Source: Pseudomonadota bacterium (GTDB lineage: Bacteria > Pseudomonadota > Gammaproteobacteria > Pseudomonadales > Moraxellaceae). From it: a stretch of DNA of 36,163 nucleotides. Below, in pieces: positions 5,737 through 17,512 of the stretch (positions within the stretch are counted from its first letter, which is position 1; each line of letters begins with the position of its first letter). Both the position numbers and the translations under genes were made by a program. Location: assembly GCA_963204705.1 (NCBI GenBank), contig CAUJHL010000049.1, forward strand, positions 1 through 36,163. The letters run 5' to 3'. The notes under the pieces are model-generated. The model made no database searches and was not told the DNA's origin. It was given only the letters and a program-made list of their open reading frames with translations.

Positions 5737-6450
5737 TTATAGCAAATGACGTTTCTGTGCCTCAAAAACGGCTTCGCCCCGGGAGGCGACATTAATCTTT
5801 TTATAAATGCGTTTCACGTGCGTGGCAACGGTATGGGTGGATAATGATAGCAGTGAGGCAATTTCTTTATATAACAATCCCTTGGCTAATAACTGGAGGA
5901 CTTCTCGTTCCCGATCCGACAGGGTAGAGTCGGTTTCGGCAACGGGCTGGGTGTTTTGCAGTGATTGAAAATGGCTGAGCAGTTTGCGGGCAATTTTAGG
6001 GCTAATGGGTGTGCCGCCATCCTGAAGTGCCTGAATGGCAGCGGTAAATTCCATGCCAATTAATTGATCTTTCTGCAAAAAACCATCGGCACCGTACTGA
6101 AAGGCCTGAAAAACGAGGTCGTCATTTCCCCACAGCGACACCACCATTTTTTTACACGCAGGGTAATGCTGATGCAGCCAGCGGATTAATTCAACGCCAC
6201 TGCCATCGGGCAAAGAAAGGTCAATGGTCACTAAATCAGGCGGACAGCGGGTCAGGTCGACATAGGCTTCACTGAGTGTGTGGGAGACTCCGGCCAGTCG
6301 ATAGCGCGGGTGCTGGCGCATGACTTCCGATAAAAATTCGCAAAAGGACACATCGTCGTCGACAATCCAGAGATTGGGCAGGCCTGCAGGGGGCAGCGTA
6401 GGAGCGGGATTTGGCGATACAGGCTCGGCGTCGATATCCTGCTGGATCAT
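5737..6450 (-). CDS. LuxR/NarL-family response regulator
   Basis: A DNA-binding response regulator, 237 residues from the ATG at 6450. The receiver domain shows acidic DDD near residue 31, phospho-acceptor Asp77 in VTIDLSLPDGSG, Ser105 and Lys127 in GFLQKDQL. A LuxR-type helix-turn-helix fills 179-224 (LSDREREVLQLLAKG, then STHTVATHVKRIYKKI). It follows the sensor kinase gene by 22 bp and should be its partner. An in-frame ATG at 6513 would give 21 more residues and a 41-bp overlap with the kinase; both starts are possible because neither has a strong ribosome binding site. A Pro-rich leader precedes the receiver. Target genes are not evident. Confidence 0.9.
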   Translation of the reverse strand: MIQQDIDAEPVSPNPAPTLPPAGLPNLWIVDDDVSFCEFLSEVMRQHPRYRLAGVSHTLSEAYVDLTRCPPDLVTIDLSLPDGSGVELIRWLHQHYPACKKMVVSLWGNDDLVFQAFQYGADGFLQKDQLIGMEFTAAIQALQDGGTPISPKIARKLLSHFQSLQNTQPVAETDSTLSDREREVLQLLAKGLLYKEIASLLSLSTHTVATHVKRIYKKINVASRGEAVFEAQKRHLL

Positions 6451-6472
6451 GTGGGCGGGCTCTCTGCAGGGA

Positions 6473-8698
6473 CTAGGGTTGAGGTGTTGCGGTTGAGGTG
6501 CTACGCATTTCATTCAACTGCACTGTGATGCTTAAACGGTACTCACTGTCTTGTTGCCATTCAAGTTTACCATGCAGGGATTGGACCCGGCGCTTCATAT
6601 TTTGCATACCACGACCACCTCTATCCGAAGGGGCCTTATGAGGATGGTCATTGTGAATTTGCAGGCGCAGCTGACCTTGTGGACTAGAGGTAATCTGCAC
6701 AGCGATGACGCTGGATTGGGCGTGTTTAAGCGCATTAGTGATGCTTTCGCGCAGGATGCGGGTCAGGTGATGGTATTCAAACGCCGTCAAAATCTGGACT
6801 TCATCCACTTCCGCTTGCCAGTCGAGGAGAATGCCCGTTTTAGACAGTCGGCTGCTGGCTTCTACCCGCCAGCTGGCAATCGCCTCGACCAGAGGAACGT
6901 CCACATCGTCCAGACTGCTGAGCAGATGACGCATATCGTCGAGTAATTCCCGTATCAGTGGGCGCTGAGCCTCACTGCTGTGCTGTAACAACGCCAGCAG
7001 TCTGGCCCCCATGTCGTCATGGATGTCGCGGGCGATGCGCTCCCGTTCCAATTTGGCTCCGGTATCCCGTGCCCGTGCGATGGAAAAAGCTAGCTCCGCC
7101 AACTCCTGAAGGGTCCCAGCGAGGACAAGATCCTGGCGCCGAAACAGTCGCTGTCCCTGAGCGGCATGATGCAGGGACAGGCTTTGGCCGGGCATTCGCA
7201 CATCCGGCACCAGTAGGGTTTGGCCACTATCCTCTAATCGTGCTTTGGTGGTGGCTGGTCCGGATTCCAGATACAGCGGACGAAAAACGACCGTAAGAAT
7301 TTCGGCCCATCGTTGCCGGAGCTGATTTTCCTGATCGCTGGTCGGACGGGTGCTGAGCAGCAAGGGCAACACCTCCGGTAGCCACTGTGTCAGGGCTTGC
7401 TCCTGATCCAGTTGCAGAATGGACAGCGCTTTTTGCCGCAGGGGAAAATAAAGCCAGCCTGTCAGGGCAATCGCGAGAGCCAGCGCCATTTCACTGGAGA
7501 GGGAAAGCCAGCTCAGCAGCGCAATATCCAGAACCAGAATGGCGAGGCCACTCAGAAACCATGCCCAGATGGAAAACCACCAGGATTCCAGATCGAATAA
7601 ACGGTAGCGCAAAAGCCCCAGCGACAGCCCCCAGTACATGATCAGGAATGCCCCAAACATCCAGGCCTGACTGACTTCAAGCTGCCAGCCCAGTGCTGCC
7701 GGTATGATCACCAGACTGGCAAACAGTCCTGTCCCAAGCATGATGGATAACAGAAACCAGCGAAAGGCGGCCCGATTGAGTGGATTCTTGCGATGCCGTA
7801 TCCATTGGGCCACTGCGAAGGCAATACCCAGCACAAAGAGCGCCAGTACGCTCAGGTGAAAAAAGCTGGAATCCGGCCACCATTGCAGCGCATCCATCGC
7901 CCAGCAGACTAAACTCAGGCTGATCGTCATCAGTGGGATCGGAACCCTGGGGCTAAGTCGAGAAGGATACGACCACAGCAGTCCAGCGAGGCATCCGGTA
8001 AAGAACAGCGCTCCGAAGTGATTCATTATCGAGAGGCCACGAAAAAGCGACCCATCCAGTATTAGAACCCGGGTACTGTAGACCGCTGCGCTGGGAGCAA
8101 ACAGGATATAGCCCAATCCGGTGAGCGCATAGAGACGGGTAGCCATGGAGTGCTGGCCAAAGCACAGCACGGCGGCACCCGTTAAGGCACCGGCTGCCCC
8201 TACCAGCAACTGAAACCAGTATAAAAAGGGTAGATCTCCCAGACGCCTGTGCTGGCCCGATATGGGAATGGTCTCTCCCGTGGTGGTCACCGCAACCAGT
8301 TCACCCTGCTGGAGTGCTTTGGCCAGTTTCCTCTGGTCTTGCATAAAGGCGTTATACCGTGAATACCCTTCCAGCGTATCGGGCTCTTCGATCAACAGCT
8401 CCGGATAGGCCAGTATTGACCCGCTGGGCGTAGTAAAATGATGAATACTTTCCCAGTGGCGGCTATTACGCTGGAGTTGTAATTCGGGTTTAACGGCTGC
8501 GCCGCTTGCGGGTGTGGCGGCTTCGGAAACCGGCGAGAGCCGAAAGACGGTGGACAGCTCGGGTGCCCTGAGGGCAAGCCGGGTCATTGCCACGCTGAGT
8601 GCAAGGACGGCGATCGCTGATAGCCACAGCAGGGTCTTGGGCGACAATTCAGACCAGAACTCAATCCACAATTCAGACCAGGAAGTCAGAGTGCGCAT
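6473..8698 (-). CDS. Multi-TM NarX-type (HisKA_3) sensor histidine kinase
   Basis: Membrane sensor kinase for the adjacent LuxR-type regulator, 741 residues from the ATG at 8698, preceded by AGGAC; an ATG at 8731 without a ribosome binding site is an alternative. One TM segment lies near residues 22-40, then a roughly 110-residue extracytoplasmic part. About eight or nine TM segments (about 158-420) follow, then a cytoplasmic linker. The HisKA_3 phosphoacceptor is His560 in ARDIHDDMGARL. The ATPase shows an N-box (RESITNALKHA, Asn655) and G-rich GGRGMQNM (694-701). The usual acidic DxG of the ATPase looks altered (IHNDHP). I recognise no named sensory domain in the membrane part, so the signal is unknown. 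Confidence 0.88.
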   Translation of the reverse strand: MRTLTSWSELWIEFWSELSPKTLLWLSAIAVLALSVAMTRLALRAPELSTVFRLSPVSEAATPASGAAVKPELQLQRNSRHWESIHHFTTPSGSILAYPELLIEEPDTLEGYSRYNAFMQDQRKLAKALQQGELVAVTTTGETIPISGQHRRLGDLPFLYWFQLLVGAAGALTGAAVLCFGQHSMATRLYALTGLGYILFAPSAAVYSTRVLILDGSLFRGLSIMNHFGALFFTGCLAGLLWSYPSRLSPRVPIPLMTISLSLVCWAMDALQWWPDSSFFHLSVLALFVLGIAFAVAQWIRHRKNPLNRAAFRWFLLSIMLGTGLFASLVIIPAALGWQLEVSQAWMFGAFLIMYWGLSLGLLRYRLFDLESWWFSIWAWFLSGLAILVLDIALLSWLSLSSEMALALAIALTGWLYFPLRQKALSILQLDQEQALTQWLPEVLPLLLSTRPTSDQENQLRQRWAEILTVVFRPLYLESGPATTKARLEDSGQTLLVPDVRMPGQSLSLHHAAQGQRLFRRQDLVLAGTLQELAELAFSIARARDTGAKLERERIARDIHDDMGARLLALLQHSSEAQRPLIRELLDDMRHLLSSLDDVDVPLVEAIASWRVEASSRLSKTGILLDWQAEVDEVQILTAFEYHHLTRILRESITNALKHAQSSVIAVQITSSPQGQLRLQIHNDHPHKAPSDRGGRGMQNMKRRVQSLHGKLEWQQDSEYRLSITVQLNEMRSTSTATPQP

Positions 8699-9006
8699 AT
8701 AAAAGTCCTGATCGAAATAATGTGCCTGCATCAGCGGGTAGCGTCGAAAGAAAGTCTTTCGGTGCGTGCCATGACAGTATGGATCTCAAGGGATGCATTT
8801 AAACTTATTGATTATAATAGAGTTTGATAGTCGCGTGTTTGATCTAAGACACTTGGACATGCGCGAGTTGGGTATCCTGCCTCAAACTTGATCTTTCGGG
8901 AAACTGCGTTTACCAAGTTTTGCAAAGGGAGTTAAGGCAGGAGCATGCACTGTGGGTGTAGGCGTTGAGTGGCCACACCCACAGAGGGAAGGGCTTTTTT
9001 CAGGCC
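8699..9006 (-). promoter_or_regulatory. Intergenic region upstream of the sensor kinase, with a possible -10 element
   Basis: This 308-bp stretch holds no gene I can support. ATTATAAT at 8811-8818 contains TATAAT on both strands. Read on the minus strand (8816-8811) it could be a -10 about 110 bp before the kinase start, but no convincing -35 is found 16-18 bp away. The stretch also contains the 8950-8984 inverted repeat, next to the stop of the following minus-strand gene. Confidence 0.25.
8950..8984. repeat. Perfect 10-bp inverted repeat downstream of the 9007 gene
   Basis: CTGTGGGTGT (8950-8959) and ACACCCACAG (8975-8984) are exact reverse complements around a 15-nt spacer. It begins 22 bp past the stop of the minus-strand gene ending at 9007, a terminator position, but no T tract follows on the minus strand. 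On the plus strand a run of six T lies 11 nt beyond the right arm. It could be an RNA 3'-end stabilising stem or a protein-binding site. Confidence 0.55.
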
Positions 9007-9703: not shown

Positions 9704-11422
9704 TCAGGAGCCTGCGGGTACCGGGGGTGCCAGTGTAAATGTTCCGGACAGGGTCAGGGTTTTGGACAGTACGTTCTGATCGCTATCCACTGCCTTGACC
9801 AACGTATTGGACAGCGTGATGCTCTTGTAATCCGGGCTTACGGACATGCCGCTGCAATCCGCCGCGAGTGCTGCACGTGCCGGATTGCACTGATAGTTGA
9901 ATTCAAAGGCGCTTGTGGTACCCAGCACTACCGTCATGCTGGTGACGCGACGATTTGCCGTGGCAATCTGCACTTTCATGATGGCGGGGGTGTTGATCGC
10001 CGTACTATCGGTGTATTCCCAAGTGCCCTGTGTCACACCGTCAACGACATTCAGCCGGTTGGCAAAGGTAGACAGTTGCAGGTTGGTGTAGTTTTGTGAA
10101 ACTGGTGAGGGCAAGTCTGTGCCCATCGTGGTAATCCGGAGCACCCCGTTGAGGTACAAAACGGTATCCCCTACACCCAGCTGTGTCTGGTTAAACGTAA
10201 TGGTCTGGCCAGCCGAATCCACCGTCGTACGAGGAGCAGGCGTTGCGGTACTGCTTGCGGGAGGCAGCAGCAGGCAACCCGCGGTAGAGGTAGCCCCACT
10301 GGCCGCGCAGTCATAACTGGCGGGAGTGGTACCATCGGTGCGACTCAGTTTGACGTAGCGTACCGTTTTGCTGCTTTTGACGTAATACACATCCAGTCTC
10401 AGTTTGCGCTGGCTGTCGGCATAACTGTAGAGCCATTCCGCACCATTGTTGACTTCATAAAAATTGGCGGAGTCAAAGACAAAGGCACTCAGGCCGGTAG
10501 CACCCGTGACGCTCAGGCCACCATTGGGGGCAATTGCGGTGGGGTTCACCAGATCGGCAATCGACAGATCCTGCCCTTTGGCAGTGAGAATGGCTTTAAT
10601 CTCAGTAGTGAGAGCCGTGCTGAAATTATTGATCGGATAGGGCAGCAGGAGGGGTAAACCCGTCCGTCCGGGGATAGCCTGACCATCCACATCACCATCG
10701 GTCGTGTCAACGGCGAACGCAGCCAGAAATTTTTCCATGGGGGCGGTTTCGTTGGGCAGAGTCTTGCTGGCAATATTGGCCATGGCAGCCATGGCAACGG
10801 CGTAGGCATCCCGGGCGACAAAGCCGAGCTTGCCCAGATCCGCGTCTTCATTGATGACAGTGGGTGGCTGGGTGATATCCACCCCGACAATACTGCCAAT
10901 TGAACTGTTAGCGCTGAGAATACTGGACTGAGTCAGGGTTGGAGTCAGGCTCAAGGCACGCTGATACGCCGCTTCCGTCAGAGGCGTCAGCGCAATACTC
11001 GACGTGGCTGTCATCTGATAGGCAACATGCAGGGTCGTCGTCAGCGGGACAAAGCGCTTGCTGGCCGTATCGTAATAGGTACTGGTGGCCCGCGGCTTGG
11101 CGGATACCACCACAATCCCCACATCGAGCGGAATATCGCTAAAGGTCACCGAGTCCGCATCGTCCATTGGCAATGTCTGGATCAGACTGTTATCACTGGC
11201 CTTGCGCAATTCCATATCGACATTGCGCAACTGGCCCATACTGGCCACCACGGTCAGATTGCCCTTGGAAACGACGATGGTTTCATCCTTGGAGGCACTT
11301 TGCCGGGGAAGGTCGTTGCCACAACCCGTTTGGGCTACTGTTCCAACAACAAGCAGACAGCCCAGGATCGCCTGTGCCAGACGTGCGCGGCGATAGGAGG
11401 GCAATGACTGTAGTGAACCCAT
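9704..11422 (-). CDS. Large exported protein (probable lipoprotein) with two C-x10-C units, unknown function
   Basis: A 572-residue protein from the ATG at 11422, preceded by GAAGGAACAG. The N-terminus is a basic stretch (SYRRARLAQ), a hydrophobic run (AILGCLLVVGTVA) and QTGC with Cys34. This resembles a lipobox, but Gln at -3 is not canonical, so lipidation is uncertain. Residues about 50-150 form a beta-rich domain (NLTVVASMGQLRNVDMELRK) of the carboxypeptidase-regulatory-like look. A Thr/Ser/Ala-rich, mostly helical middle follows. The C-terminal half has two similar units, each with Cys-x10-Cys (YDCAAS...AGC and YQCNPA...ADC) followed by beta strands. Only these four Cys occur in the last 300 residues. 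I recognise no catalytic motif; an envelope or surface role is inferred. Confidence 0.75.
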   Translation of the reverse strand: MGSLQSLPSYRRARLAQAILGCLLVVGTVAQTGCGNDLPRQSASKDETIVVSKGNLTVVASMGQLRNVDMELRKASDNSLIQTLPMDDADSVTFSDIPLDVGIVVVSAKPRATSTYYDTASKRFVPLTTTLHVAYQMTATSSIALTPLTEAAYQRALSLTPTLTQSSILSANSSIGSIVGVDITQPPTVINEDADLGKLGFVARDAYAVAMAAMANIASKTLPNETAPMEKFLAAFAVDTTDGDVDGQAIPGRTGLPLLLPYPINNFSTALTTEIKAILTAKGQDLSIADLVNPTAIAPNGGLSVTGATGLSAFVFDSANFYEVNNGAEWLYSYADSQRKLRLDVYYVKSSKTVRYVKLSRTDGTTPASYDCAASGATSTAGCLLLPPASSTATPAPRTTVDSAGQTITFNQTQLGVGDTVLYLNGVLRITTMGTDLPSPVSQNYTNLQLSTFANRLNVVDGVTQGTWEYTDSTAINTPAIMKVQIATANRRVTSMTVVLGTTSAFEFNYQCNPARAALAADCSGMSVSPDYKSITLSNTLVKAVDSDQNVLSKTLTLSGTFTLAPPVPAGS

Positions 11423-11762
11423 GGTCTGTTCCTTCATTCTGGGAAAATCGGGCGGTGTCATTCCGCTGAGCTGCTGTGCTGTATGAGGCAGTACTACCTG
11501 CAAAACCTGCCTGCACCTTAGGGAAATAGCCCTCGCCTAAGACTAGCCAGCTTCGCAACATTCCAGCATACGATCAGGAGCAATGAAACACCAGACGTGT
11601 ATCCGAGCGATTGTAAACCATTATGAGGTATCGGCAGGGCTTAACAATTGAGGAAACGCGCTCTTTGCTTTCACTTGGGGGAGCTTGGCGATAGAATCAA
11701 GGCCAGTGGTTTCATTGATAGTGTTCATACAGGCCAGACTGCCTGTTTTTCGGGAAAAAAAC
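11423..11762. other. 340-bp divergent intergenic region
   Basis: This lies between the exported-protein gene (minus) and ilvD (plus) and must hold both promoters. Apart from a weak promoter candidate at 11669-11697 and a short imperfect stem CTTAGG/CCTAAG (11517-11522 and 11536-11541), I see nothing. There is no leader peptide rich in Ile, Val or Leu codons and no T-box-like structure before ilvD. Confidence 0.5.
11669..11697 (+). promoter_or_regulatory. Possible sigma70-type promoter of ilvD
   Basis: TTTCAC (11669-11674), a 17-bp spacer, and TAGAAT (11692-11697). The -10 differs from consensus at one position; the -35 is poor. Transcription would start about 60 bp before the ilvD ATG. Confidence 0.3.
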
Positions 11763-13445
11763 ATGAGTTCTGATAATTCGATCCGCAAGCATTCGTCACA
11801 GGTCGTTGATGGTATCGAATGCGCGCCGGCACGTGCCATGTTGCGGGCTGTCGGTTTTTCCGATGAGGATTTTAAAAAACCGCAAGTGGGCATCGCCTCG
11901 ACCTGGGCGAACGTCACGCCCTGCAATATGCACATTGATGGGCTGGCCCGCGAAGCGGAAATTGGGGTAGATACGGCGGGTGGCAAGGGGGTGATTTTTA
12001 ACACCATCACCATTTCGGATGGCATCGCCAACGGTACCGAAGGCATGAAGTATTCGATGGTTTCCCGTGAAATCATTGCCGATTCGATTGAGGCAGTCGC
12101 AGGATGTGAAGGCTTTGATGGCATCATCGCCATTGGTGGCTGTGACAAGAACATGCCCGGTTGCATCATGGGCATGGCGCGCCTGAATCGTCCTTCCGTA
12201 TTTGTCTATGGCGGTACCATTCAGCCTGGTGGCGGTCATACCGACATTATTTCGGTCTTTGAAGCCGTGGGTCAGCACGCCAAAGGTGAACTGAATGAGA
12301 TTCAGGTCAAACAGATTGAAGAAGTCGCCATTCCCGGCCCCGGTTCCTGTGGTGGCATGTACACCGCCAACACCATGGCGTCCGCCATTGAAGCGCTCGG
12401 CATGAGCCTGCCGGGCTCCAGTGCGCAGGATGCTGTTTCCCATGACAAACACGACGATTGCCGCCGTGCCGGTGCAGCGGTGCTGAATCTGCTGAAAAAA
12501 GACATCAAGCCGCGCGACATCATGACCAAGCCGGCCTTTGAAAATGCCATCAAGGTAGTGATCGCCCTCGGTGGCTCGACCAATGCCGTGTTGCACCTGA
12601 TTGCCATGGCGCGGACGGTCGATGTGGATCTGTCGCTGGATGATTTTGTCCGTATTGGCAAGGAAACGCCACTGCTGGCTGACTTGCGTCCTTCCGGCAA
12701 ATACATGATGAGTGAGCTGGTCGCCATCGGTGGCATTCAGCCGCTGATGAAACGCATGCTGGATCGCGGCATGCTGGATGGCAGCTGCCTGACAGTGACG
12801 GGTGAAACCCTGGCGGACAATCTGGCTAATGTCACAGATTATCCCGCTGGCCAGCAGATCATCATGCCATTCGATGCGCCGATCAAGGCCGATTCGCATC
12901 TGGTCATCCTGAAAGGTAATCTGGCGCCTGAAGGCTCGGTGGCAAAAATCACCGGCAAGGAAGGCCTGCGCTTTGAAGGCACTGCGCGCGTCTACGAAGG
13001 CGAAGAAGGCGCACTGGAAGGCATCCTGAATGGTGAAGTGGTCGCGGGTGATGTGATCGTGATCAAGGGCGAAGGGCCCAAGGGCGGACCCGGCATGCGT
13101 GAAATGCTCTCACCGACCTCGGCGGTGATGGGCAAGGGCTTGGGCAAATCCGTTGCGCTGATTACCGATGGTCGGTTCAGTGGGGGTTCGCACGGATTTG
13201 TGGTTGGACACATTACCCCGGAAGCTTTTGATGGCGGACCGATTGGCCTGATTCAAAACGGCGATCGCATCGTGATTGATGCCGAAACCCGCGAAATCAG
13301 CGTTAATGTGTCCGAGTCGGAAATGGCCAGCCGCCGCGCTGCATGGCAACAGCCCCCTGCAAAATACACCCGCGGGGCACTGGCGAAATATGCCCGTCTG
13401 GTGTCCAGCGCTTCGCTGGGCGCCACCACGGATATTCTGGACTGA
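11763..13445 (+). CDS. ilvD: Dihydroxy-acid dehydratase
   Basis: Dehydrates 2,3-dihydroxy-isovalerate and -methylvalerate to the 2-keto acids in valine and isoleucine synthesis. The protein is 560 residues, typical of the shorter IlvD clade. Iron-sulfur cluster ligands are visible: Cys54 in NVTPCNMHIDG, Cys127 in GGCDKNMPGC, and Cys196 in GPGSCGGMYTANTM. Near the end are GRFSGGSHGFVVGHI and the DRIVIDAE region, both family features. The ATG at 11763 (MSSDNSIRKHS) is used because an in-frame TTG at 11685 adds unrelated sequence. It is first in a likely operon with the DsbA-fold gene and gacS. No attenuator is visible upstream. Confidence 0.98.
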   Translation: MSSDNSIRKHSSQVVDGIECAPARAMLRAVGFSDEDFKKPQVGIASTWANVTPCNMHIDGLAREAEIGVDTAGGKGVIFNTITISDGIANGTEGMKYSMVSREIIADSIEAVAGCEGFDGIIAIGGCDKNMPGCIMGMARLNRPSVFVYGGTIQPGGGHTDIISVFEAVGQHAKGELNEIQVKQIEEVAIPGPGSCGGMYTANTMASAIEALGMSLPGSSAQDAVSHDKHDDCRRAGAAVLNLLKKDIKPRDIMTKPAFENAIKVVIALGGSTNAVLHLIAMARTVDVDLSLDDFVRIGKETPLLADLRPSGKYMMSELVAIGGIQPLMKRMLDRGMLDGSCLTVTGETLADNLANVTDYPAGQQIIMPFDAPIKADSHLVILKGNLAPEGSVAKITGKEGLRFEGTARVYEGEEGALEGILNGEVVAGDVIVIKGEGPKGGPGMREMLSPTSAVMGKGLGKSVALITDGRFSGGSHGFVVGHITPEAFDGGPIGLIQNGDRIVIDAETREISVNVSESEMASRRAAWQQPPAKYTRGALAKYARLVSSASLGATTDILD

Positions 13446-13478
13446 GAAAAAACAGGCGCTGATGAAAGGAGACAGGGA

Positions 13479-14762
13479 ATGTCCTTGAGCCGCCGCTGGC
13501 TGGATCCACTGCGTTCGCGCTGGTGGAAGCGCCGTCGCGTCCGCTCGCCGCGTCTGTCCACCCGGAATGGCCTCAGCCTGCATCTGCGGCTGGATGATCC
13601 CTACAGTTATCTGGTGGTGCAGCTCGTCGAGCAAGTCAATGATTTGCTGGTTGAAAAGCTCAAACCACTGAAACTAGTGCTGCATACCGCATCTGCTGGC
13701 CACGATGGGCCTGTCTGGATGCGTCTTGAGGACTGGCAGCAACATGTGCTGCAGGATGCCGAAACGCTGGCGCATCAGCACCGCTTTATTTTTCAGGCCA
13801 ATGCGGGTTTTCCCGACCCTGCCCAGATGCAGCAGGCTCTGGACATTTTGCGCTATACCGCGTTAACCGGCCAGGATTATCTGCATTTGCTGCAAAACCT
13901 GTTTCACATGGTGTGGCAGCACCAGCAAGGCAAATTGGCCACGCTGCATCAGATGGCACTTAAACGGGCCATGTCGGAAGGCAAGTCGCGAGATTTTGCC
14001 AGCCAGATCATTCAGTTTTCAGAAGCGCCTTTGCCATCTACGTATTGGCAATTTGGGGGCCGGCGCTATCAGGGTATTGATGATGTATTGCGTCTCAGTC
14101 GTCGCCTGAAGAAGCAGCGACTGCTTACCGCCGAGCCGGTGTTGCTGATCAATCATATCGAGTGGGGGGAGCATCTGGTCAGTGACCCGCTCCTGCTGGC
14201 CGATATTCAGGCCCGGCATGCCGAGCTGGAGATGTACGTCGCCTTGGAAGACCCCCTGAGCTGGCTGTTGCTGGACTATCTGCAGCGGGAAATGCTGGAG
14301 TATTACAATATCCGACTCAACGTATTTCCCGTGAGTTATCAGGGCCGTGATCGCTTTGATTGGGAGTTAATGATGCGCCTCTCGCGCCGGATCGGCGTGC
14401 CGTTTGCCCCTTTTTGCCGGCCAGGCCCCAACAGTGTGTTTTTGATGGCATCTGCGCTGGCCTCAAGGAATCCAGAGGAAATAGGAGCACGGCTTTTGAC
14501 GTTACTGAAGCCCATTTGGACGCGCGGAAGGGACGTGGAGTTTCTTCCGCATCAGCAAGAGCTCATCTGTAAGGAAGAGATGGCAGCGGCTGAAACTACC
14601 ACGGAATGGCTGCTGGAAAACGATCGGCGCTGGCAAGCCCTTGGAGTGCCTGAGTTACCGGCGTTTCGTTTGCAGGTTGAGGGCCAGACGGTACATTTTG
14701 GTGGCCTGTATCGGCTCTGGATGCTGGAAGCGCATCTGTCTGACCGGTTGGCACAGCCATGA
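13479..14762 (+). CDS. Duplicated DsbA/HCCA-isomerase-like thioredoxin-fold protein
   Basis: A 427-residue protein; an AAAGGAG sequence lies 12 bp before its ATG. Two segments each show the marks of the DsbA/2-hydroxychromene-2-carboxylate isomerase fold. The first has LRLDDPYSYLVVQLV (37-50) and YWQFGGRRYQGIDDVLRL (189-206). The second has VALEDPLSWLLLDYL (254-268) and VHFGGLYRLWMLEAHL (405-420). The starts resemble the family's SPYSYLA strand-helix, and the ends its FWGQDRL motif. Neither unit has a CxxC, so classic thiol oxidation is unlikely; glutathione-dependent isomerase or transferase chemistry, or a binding role, remains open. The N-terminus is highly basic (SRWWKRRRVRS), without a signal peptide. 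It overlaps gacS by ATGA, so the two are coupled. Confidence 0.75.
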   Translation: MSLSRRWLDPLRSRWWKRRRVRSPRLSTRNGLSLHLRLDDPYSYLVVQLVEQVNDLLVEKLKPLKLVLHTASAGHDGPVWMRLEDWQQHVLQDAETLAHQHRFIFQANAGFPDPAQMQQALDILRYTALTGQDYLHLLQNLFHMVWQHQQGKLATLHQMALKRAMSEGKSRDFASQIIQFSEAPLPSTYWQFGGRRYQGIDDVLRLSRRLKKQRLLTAEPVLLINHIEWGEHLVSDPLLLADIQARHAELEMYVALEDPLSWLLLDYLQREMLEYYNIRLNVFPVSYQGRDRFDWELMMRLSRRIGVPFAPFCRPGPNSVFLMASALASRNPEEIGARLLTLLKPIWTRGRDVEFLPHQQELICKEEMAAAETTTEWLLENDRRWQALGVPELPAFRLQVEGQTVHFGGLYRLWMLEAHLSDRLAQP

Positions 14763-17512
14763 GTGCCCTGCAGACACTGAGAGAAGCCAGCCACCTGTTG
14801 CCGCGCAGCATGCTGATGCGCCGGGTCATGCTCTTTATTCTGATATCGCCCCTGGTTTTAATGGCATTGGGACATGTGACGCTGGTCAATCAGGAGGAGA
14901 ATACCCGACGCTTGATGGCACGCCAACAGGCGGATTTACTGACGGACATTCTGTCGGAATATCTGGTTGAGCATCAGGGCTCTGTGGTTAGTTCTGATAT
15001 ACAGTACGTATTGCAGGGGTTTCTGGGGAGTCAGTCGGATTACAAGGTGGCTGTTTACAATCCCGAAGGCAGTGTTTTGTTTACACGGGAAAAACACTCC
15101 ACGCTGATGGGCAATCACAGCAGGCAAGTAGTGTGGAGCAGCTCCCTTCAGCCCAGCGAATATTTTAACAATAATGAAATGACCAGCTGGCGGCCTCTGG
15201 GTTATGGCTACTGGCTGTATTTGCGCCAGCAAGCGCCAGTTGCGGGAGACATTGGTGGGTTCGGTATTATTGGCTGGCTCTTTCCACTGGTGGTGCTCTT
15301 GTTTACCCTGCTGCCATTTTACTGGGTAAAACGGCTGTTCAATCAGCTGGAGCAATTGGTTTCCTATACCCGTACCCTGGATCAGCAAACGCATTATCAG
15401 GCCTTGCCCAAAATCCAGTATTACCCGGATTTGCTGCCGGTTTACCATGCCATCAATCGGGTAAGCTATCGCTTTCATCAAAAGAACCAGACGCTGATTA
15501 CCCATCGTCAATTCAGTCATCAAATGATTGATCTGTCTTCAGAAACACTGTTTCGTGTCGAACATCACGGTCGGCTGAATTTTATTAACAGTGCGTTTGA
15601 AAGTGCCTCAGGAATGCTGCGGGAACAGGTTCTGGGGCGGGCACCTGCGCAGATTTTTTCCACCGTAGACCCTGATCAGCAGGGCTTGCTCACCCGCTTG
15701 ATGTCATCCCCCCAGCGCCTCAGACTCCTGGTACGCATCACGGGTCAGGCCAAAGTATTTGATCTGGTGTTAACTCCCTATCAGAGTGAACAACGACTGT
15801 TGGCAGGCTATACCGGCATTTTGCATGATGTGACGCACTATCAGCTGGAGCTGGGCGATTTGCGTAAGCAGATCCGTGAAAGCAAACAGCAAATCGCCGA
15901 AAATGACAAAATGATGGCCACCATGAGCCATGAGTTGCGGACTCCGCTGAATGGCATTTTGGGCATGGCACAACTGCTCGGGCAAACGGAACTGAATCAG
16001 GAGCAGCAGGAATACGTTCGTACCCTGCAAAACTCCGGTGAAGCGATGTTGCGGCTGATCAACGATATTCTGGATCTATCGAAGCTCGAAGCCGGCAAAA
16101 TGCTCACCGAGCGCATGAATTTTGATGTGCTCGAGCTGACTGGTGAGGTTTGTGATCTGATGGCCGCGAATGCGGTGCATAAAAAAATCGAGCTGGTTCA
16201 GTTTATTTCGCCCGACTGTCCTCGCTATTTGTCAGGCGACCCATTCCGTATTCGCCAGATTTTGCTGAATCTGGTCAGTAATGCGATTAAATTTACCCAG
16301 CAGGGTTTTGTGGCGGTACAGATTCGTCCAGTAAGTTATTCAGAAGTCTCCGAGCGCATTGGCGTCCACCATACCGCCGTAGAGTCTGCCCAGTGGTTTG
16401 CGTTTGAAGTACGTGATACCGGCATGGGGATTTCCGCTGAACAGCAGAAAGAGTTATTCCAGTTTTTTGCCCAGGCAGATAATACCGTTAGCCGGAAGTT
16501 TGGCGGGACCGGACTGGGACTGGCGATTTCCCGTGGGCTTGCGGAGGCAATGCATGGCGGTGTTAGCCTGTGCAGTCAGCTGGGTGAAGGAACGACGTTT
16601 AGCCTCTATTTGCCACTTTTGGTGCAGTCGGAAACCCGGGTTTATTCACATCCCATCCGTCTGGATCAGACTCAGGTGGCCCTGTTTGAGCCTTTATTAA
16701 TCAATCAGCAGGGGATTGGCGCACTGCTGGCAGCGCTGGAAGTCAAGGTTGATGTCTATGAAAGTCTGAGCCAGCTTAGCTTCGCAGCGGCGCACTTCTA
16801 TGGGAAATCACGTCCTATTCTGTTGATTGATTTCCAGTTGTTAAACGGCAAGCCCTTGTCTGAGTATTTGGTGCAATTCCCCGATCTCAAAAATAGCCAC
16901 TGCATCCTGATGAGTGCGCAGCCAGTTCGCAGTATAGCGACACGGTTAACCGCTGATTTTCAGGGTTTTCTGATCAAGCCAATCCGGTTCGAGCATCTGA
17001 TGGCGGAGCTGGTTCGCGCATCTGAACAGCTGGATCGGGGCGAGGACATGATTCTCCCACTTGGGGCGGAAGGCGAGCAGCAAAAGATGGACGCTTTTTT
17101 CGAGCAGGTGAAACAGCAGGAATCCACACAACCACCCGAACAGATACTGACGGTATTGCTGGCGGAGGACAATCTGGTCAATCAGAAAGTGGCCGGCAAA
17201 ATGCTGCAAAAAATGAATTGTCAGGTATTGATTGCCGCCAATGGACAGATTGCCCTAGATATGCTGAGAGAGCACCCAGAGGTGGATTTGATTTTGATGG
17301 ATTGCCGGATGCCGGAAATGGATGGCCTGGAAGCCACGCGGCGCATTCGCTCAGATTTGAACAGTATTCCGATTGTGGCGCTGACCGCCAATGATACCGA
17401 AGAGGATCGCGAAGCCTGTATGGTTGCGGGGATGGATGATTTTCTGGCCAAGCCGCTCGATCAGTCCAAACTTCGGCAACTGATCGCGCGGTTTCAGCTG
17501 TTGAAAAAATAA
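14759..17512 (+). CDS. gacS: GacS/BarA-type hybrid sensor histidine kinase
   Basis: A 917-residue membrane hybrid kinase. In order: TM1 (about 22-43), periplasmic sensor (about 44-168), TM2 (about 169-190), a degenerate HAMP-like linker, a PAS-like domain (about 252-365), and HisKA with His391 in MATMSHELRTPLNG. The ATPase follows with an N-box (LLNLVSNAIKF), DTGMGIS and GGTGLGLAIS. A pseudo-receiver (about 637-752) lacks a clear phospho-acceptor setting. The last domain is a true receiver (797-915), with Asp848 in LILMDCRMPEMDG and Lys898. BarA/GacS proteins usually end in an HPt domain, which is absent here. The symbol rests on architecture; other tripartite-type kinases are similar. In this family signal output goes to GacA/UvrY, whose gene is not in the window. 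Confidence 0.82.
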   Translation: MSALQTLREASHLLPRSMLMRRVMLFILISPLVLMALGHVTLVNQEENTRRLMARQQADLLTDILSEYLVEHQGSVVSSDIQYVLQGFLGSQSDYKVAVYNPEGSVLFTREKHSTLMGNHSRQVVWSSSLQPSEYFNNNEMTSWRPLGYGYWLYLRQQAPVAGDIGGFGIIGWLFPLVVLLFTLLPFYWVKRLFNQLEQLVSYTRTLDQQTHYQALPKIQYYPDLLPVYHAINRVSYRFHQKNQTLITHRQFSHQMIDLSSETLFRVEHHGRLNFINSAFESASGMLREQVLGRAPAQIFSTVDPDQQGLLTRLMSSPQRLRLLVRITGQAKVFDLVLTPYQSEQRLLAGYTGILHDVTHYQLELGDLRKQIRESKQQIAENDKMMATMSHELRTPLNGILGMAQLLGQTELNQEQQEYVRTLQNSGEAMLRLINDILDLSKLEAGKMLTERMNFDVLELTGEVCDLMAANAVHKKIELVQFISPDCPRYLSGDPFRIRQILLNLVSNAIKFTQQGFVAVQIRPVSYSEVSERIGVHHTAVESAQWFAFEVRDTGMGISAEQQKELFQFFAQADNTVSRKFGGTGLGLAISRGLAEAMHGGVSLCSQLGEGTTFSLYLPLLVQSETRVYSHPIRLDQTQVALFEPLLINQQGIGALLAALEVKVDVYESLSQLSFAAAHFYGKSRPILLIDFQLLNGKPLSEYLVQFPDLKNSHCILMSAQPVRSIATRLTADFQGFLIKPIRFEHLMAELVRASEQLDRGEDMILPLGAEGEQQKMDAFFEQVKQQESTQPPEQILTVLLAEDNLVNQKVAGKMLQKMNCQVLIAANGQIALDMLREHPEVDLILMDCRMPEMDGLEATRRIRSDLNSIPIVALTANDTEEDREACMVAGMDDFLAKPLDQSKLRQLIARFQLLKK

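Follow-up and report, generated by a model that had tools for sequence, protein, structure and literature searches.

A tandem kappa-GST/HCCA-isomerase-like protein of Moraxellaceae that lacks the catalytic serine in both halves and is encoded beside a PAS hybrid histidine kinase

In kappa-class GST structures, the aspartate of the [S/N/Q]DR motif takes part in glutathione binding. These proteins (GSTK1; 1r4w, 1yzx, and 3rpn) have a single domain per chain, and their active-site serine has been reported to be critical to the mechanism (PMC2757866). The bacterial HCCA isomerase (2imd) is likewise a single-domain protein, a glutathione-dependent isomerase whose serine is part of an SPFS motif. 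A related fold is found in YjbH (6gho and 6ghb), a ClpXP adaptor (PMC7889195), in which a DsbA-related fold is used for protein binding; in the published cases, YjbH has a CxxC motif and works with Spx and ClpXP in Gram-positive bacteria. In the open literature, we found nothing on a tandem kappa/HCCA protein or on the gene described here.

The gene is located in a 36,163-nucleotide stretch of DNA from a Moraxellaceae genome (hereafter, the window; Table 1). Its reading frame was intact when checked in the sequence, and the AAAGGAG upstream of it reads as a strong ribosome-binding site. No export signal was evident by eye in the encoded protein. Promoter and terminator matches in the window occurred at about the level found in shuffled sequence and were set aside.

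Table 1. Features of the tandem gene and its neighbours, in window coordinates.
Feature	Positions	Strand	Basis
ilvD, dihydroxy-acid dehydratase, 33 nt upstream of the tandem ORF; start codon uncertain	11685..13445	+	neighbour survey
Ribosome-binding site AAAGGAG, 5' of the tandem ORF	13465..13471	+	sequence
Tandem kappa-GST/HCCA-isomerase-like protein P0001, 427 aa	13479..14762	+	ORF; family alignments
N-terminal kappa/DsbA-like half, residues 30–222, no cis-Pro at the expected place	13566..14144	+	hhalign and PDB profile match
DDPYS, residues 39–43; D40 at the catalytic-Ser place of kappa GST/HCCA isomerase	13593..13607	+	motif table
D201, matching the [S/N/Q]DR-motif Asp of kappa GST/HCCA isomerase	14079..14081	+	alignment, motif table
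C-terminal kappa/HCCA-like half, residues 246–427	14214..14759	+	AF2 model, structure matches, clade-only profile
EDPLS, residues 257–261; D258 in place of the catalytic Ser of RSPYS	14247..14261	+	motif table, tree
P394, cis-Pro position	14658..14660	+	motif table
LYR, residues 410–412, instead of QDR; Asp lost (Y411), Arg kept	14706..14714	+	motif table
ATGA overlap of tandem-ORF stop and kinase start	14759..14762	+	sequence
PAS-HisKA-HATPase-REC hybrid histidine kinase, 917 aa, no Hpt	14759..17512	+	domain and model searches, genome comparison

Searched as a single sequence, the window protein gave zero matches in Pfam and NCBIfam, and the curated cutoff of PF01323 was not reached; the E-value of this family fades along a series of relatives leading to the window protein (7.4e-28, 9.6e-8, 0.0083, and none). 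Unlike the single sequence, profiles of the family recover kappa-GST/HCCA matches. A profile of 13 members matched the PDB entries 1r4w (E = 6.8e-16) and 2imd (E = 9e-15) over the C-half, and a C-half profile built from the Moraxellaceae members without the serine alone found 1r4w with an E-value of 3.1e-9. Modeled by AF2, the window C-half (pLDDT 78.7, pTM 0.78) had GSTK 1r4w as its top Foldseek match (E = 1.5e-7) and also matched the HCCA isomerase 2imd (E = 3.8e-6). Comparison of the same model by VIA gave Z scores of 15.2 for human GSTK (177 residues, 19% identity), 14.8 for HCCA isomerase, and 13.4 for YjbH, with DsbA proteins ranking below the first two. The modeled C-half has the kappa-type DsbA-like thioredoxin fold with its helical insert, and it shares the cis-Pro position with kappa GSTs; the N-half is assigned to this fold by profile only (98.1% probability with a single-domain HCCA isomerase in hhalign; 2imd at E = 0.0015 in the PDB search). 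In the latter search, a “lysozyme” entry (5i8l) that ranked above the HCCA isomerase was rejected as spurious, being composed of three short repeat matches, none of which was significant alone. A full-length AF2 model computed from a six-sequence alignment had a pLDDT of 43 and no Foldseek match. These comparisons support the assignment of both halves as degenerate kappa-class GST/HCCA-isomerase domains, which belong to the DsbA-like branch of the thioredoxin fold, and they sustain the earlier note's proposal, made from the DNA sequence, that the protein consists of two DsbA/HCCA-isomerase-like domains.

The same note had described the protein as internally duplicated. Profiles of the N-half and the C-half align with a probability of 98.9% over 176 columns (hhalign), controls with column-shuffled or unrelated profiles reach at most 1.5%, and because of these values and the N-half match to the HCCA isomerase, the two halves are judged to be homologous and the duplication real. 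When the profiles were restricted to the clade without the serine, the alignment of the two halves failed (4.3%), as did the alignments with one HCCA isomerase (2.3% for the C-half and 24.9% for the N-half); that is to say, the profile link among the halves and the HCCA isomerase, as seen in these alignments, depends on intermediate family members. Of the two landmarks that had been read as occurring twice, the DDPYS and EDPLS motifs are homologous, but the repeated FGG is not equivalent. In the hhalign alignment, QGIDDVLRL of the N-half (residues 198–206) corresponds to GGLYRLWML of the C-half (residues 408–416), and the FGG of the N-half (residues 192–194) lies approximately 6 residues before the equivalent segment, inside the preceding hairpin.

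As previously noted, the CxxC active site of DsbA oxidoreductases is absent from the window protein; its only cysteines are C313 and C364. This absence is not anomalous, because canonical kappa/HCCA members use a serine where CxxC has its N-terminal residue, and the lack of CxxC is normal for the class; the telling absence is that of the catalytic serine. A motif table of 50 sampled family members revealed that (i) the N-half has an aspartate (D40) at the catalytic-serine place in all 50 members, and its alignment has no proline at the cis-Pro place; (ii) the residue corresponding to D201 is an aspartate in 46 of the 50; (iii) the catalytic place of the C-half is occupied by serine in 28 members and by aspartate, glutamate or asparagine in the other 22; and (iv) P394, which the alignment defines by position and not by cis geometry, and R412, the arginine of the DR motif, are kept in every member. 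The window protein has no SPxS serine, D40 and D258 occupying both places; in its C-half the aspartate of QDR is lost, and the N-half counterpart is retained. Full-length tandem homologs of the “SPYS” type, from other Pseudomonadales (e.g., L027, L080, and L090), have the same two-domain layout and the same N-half aspartate. They differ in that their C-half keeps RSPYS, WGVP and WGQDR and their scores exceed the PF01323 cutoff, and to judge from these motifs they probably have one active half.

Close relatives of the window protein (45–52% identity) are found in Moraxellaceae such as Alkanindiges, more distant full-length relatives are distributed across Pseudomonadales and sparsely elsewhere in the class, and approximately 64 of 149 Moraxellaceae genomes encode the full-length protein. 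Most of the Pseudomonadales relatives keep the C-half serine. In a 52-member tree, the C-half state without serine appears as one change (branch support 100/100, and present in all 200 bootstrap trees), which places a single loss of this serine within Moraxellaceae, in the subgroup to which the window protein belongs. In most Pseudomonadales, an altered N-half with aspartate for serine and no cis-proline accompanies a C-half carrying a complete kappa active site; one Moraxellaceae lineage, that of the window protein, has lost the C-half serine (to aspartate) and the QDR aspartate as well. Between relatives within this clade, dN/dS is 0.03–0.10, and 91 residues are invariant in its 17-member core. 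The low dN/dS values show that the protein is functional and under purifying selection, most simply as a binding protein.

Because both halves have lost residues of the catalytic site, we infer that the window protein is a pseudoenzyme of two fused kappa-GST/HCCA-isomerase domains that would act by binding through its conserved surfaces (probability approximately 0.68). The resulting intramolecular pseudo-dimer, which has no parallel in the single-domain chain of GSTK with its catalytic serine and DR-motif aspartate, would most likely bind a small molecule or another protein. YjbH illustrates that a fold of this type can serve as an adaptor, an analogy that says nothing of kinship. The thiol- or glutathione-sensing role suggested in the earlier note is unlikely in its simple form, since neither half retains the serine that works on the thiol of glutathione, and each is missing a further site residue; the invariance of P394 and R412 may nevertheless leave room for some glutathione-like binding. 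The protein could instead still be an enzyme in which the aspartates reflect a changed chemistry, a reading to which the constancy of D40 and near-constancy of D201, the convergence of the derived-clade C-half on the same xDP motif, and the strong purifying selection would all be congenial. An aspartate near the glutathione thiol would disfavor the thiolate, however, and with the cis-proline wanting in the N-half and the QDR aspartate in the C-half, we regard retained catalysis as very improbable. The protein offers a clean case of an enzyme fold whose catalytic residue disappeared first from one half and afterwards from the second under strong selection.

The gene downstream of the tandem gene had been taken for gacS and the tandem protein for an accessory of the Gac kinase. 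The downstream product shares the generic HisKA-HATPase-REC core with GacS/BarA, but it contains a PAS domain and has no C-terminal Hpt domain, which is present in the true orthologs (L116–L118). Its score against the BarA model is 385 bits (cutoff 890), with 491 of 920 positions covered, compared with 550–573 bits, spanning most of the model, for the true BarA orthologs in the window's relatives. The window genome's own GacS/BarA is encoded on another contig (G000:C34) and shares 57% identity with its BarA counterpart in the related genome G015; its gene (positions 67–2544 of that contig) seems to continue on contig C23. No match to sCache_4 (PF09984) was found in the kinase or in the window genome, and the same was true of most Moraxellaceae searched, including genomes with a true GacS. 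The kinases that adjoin the tandem gene form a separate group, with one copy per genome in 22 of the 149 Moraxellaceae genomes and none elsewhere in the sample of the order. The identification as gacS, and with it the link to the Gac system, is therefore rejected, and the correction draws attention to an uncharacterized kinase family of Moraxellaceae.

The overlap of the tandem-gene stop with the start of the next reading frame is present as reported and recurs identically in G015; such an overlap does not imply that the two products are made in a fixed ratio, as had been supposed. In the window, the tandem gene is probably transcribed in one operon with ilvD and the PAS hybrid kinase gene. 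In genus g5, the gaps between the tandem gene and the kinase gene are 7–29 nt. Contigs allow the distance between the two genes to be read in 10 genomes from five genera: in 7 of these they are direct neighbours, and in the other 3 a single gene, for a periplasmic binding protein, lies between them; contig ends prevent the distance from being resolved in one further genome. The link to the kinase is thus old in a few genera. The earlier note had named homologs usually found away from gacS as an outcome that would refute its reading, and most homologs of the tandem protein do occur away from any such kinase, next to ilvD in Acinetobacter-like genomes, which goes partway to that refutation. The two proteins are found together in 11 of 149 genomes, approximately 10 being predicted for independent occurrence; most genomes with the tandem protein lack the kinase, and the reverse case, a kinase but no full-length tandem homolog, is seen in 11 genomes.

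In some genera the proximity to the kinase could have a functional basis, or it could simply reflect inherited gene order. The tandem protein may help regulate the PAS hybrid kinase, and any action on the kinase is speculative, with the odds clearly against it. In its strongest form, this idea makes the protein a dedicated cytosolic accessory that passes a metabolic or redox signal to the cytoplasmic domains of the kinase. The overlap and short gaps, the proximity in every resolvable genome, and the restriction of the single-copy kinase family to Moraxellaceae are in its favor; co-occurrence at chance level, kinases without a partner, and an adjacency that inherited gene order can explain make it rather unlikely. 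A more elaborate version, in which the N-half is an ancient and distinct aspartate-for-serine site and a single conversion of the Moraxellaceae C-half to the same Asp-Pro state made a half-active enzyme into a two-site sensor or adaptor giving cytosolic input to the family-specific kinase in several genera, is quite improbable.

Two arrangements were noted immediately before kinase genes of this group. In genus g13 (L080, L086, and L088), a phosphonate-type periplasmic binding protein gene directly precedes the kinase gene, which suggests a ligand-binding partner. In G017, a canonical single-domain HCCA isomerase gene (L124:3694-4293) lies just upstream of the kinase gene; as a second pairing this was dismissed as coincidence, another genome of the genus having no such gene at that place.

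The commonest conserved neighbour of the tandem gene is ilvD, which lies directly upstream on the same strand in approximately 16 of 50 sampled loci, compared with 7 direct kinase neighbours. These loci include Acinetobacter-like genomes and other families; the Acinetobacter-like genomes, like those of Alkanindiges, lack the kinase and have the tandem gene near ilvD. The function could accordingly be tied to this Fe-S dehydratase of branched-chain amino acid synthesis, for example in maturing or protecting the enzyme, with the kinase as a later neighbour. We consider this unlikely, since argA, AMP-ligase or other genes occupy the upstream place at many loci, the gaps to ilvD are often 150–350 nt, which leaves co-transcription uncertain, and fmt and rsmB too have stayed in the vicinity, so that general synteny explains the proximity. 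For the binding pseudoenzyme that we prefer, the apparent inclusion of Acinetobacter-like genera in this large bacterial family means that a specific function would be testable in common laboratory strains.

Elsewhere in the window, a 599-aa reading frame adjoining ilvD (9704-11503, minus strand) has no Pfam or NCBIfam match. A second two-component pair is encoded on the minus strand at 5737-8731, where the genes of a NarX/UhpB-type kinase (752 aa) and a LuxR-type response regulator overlap.
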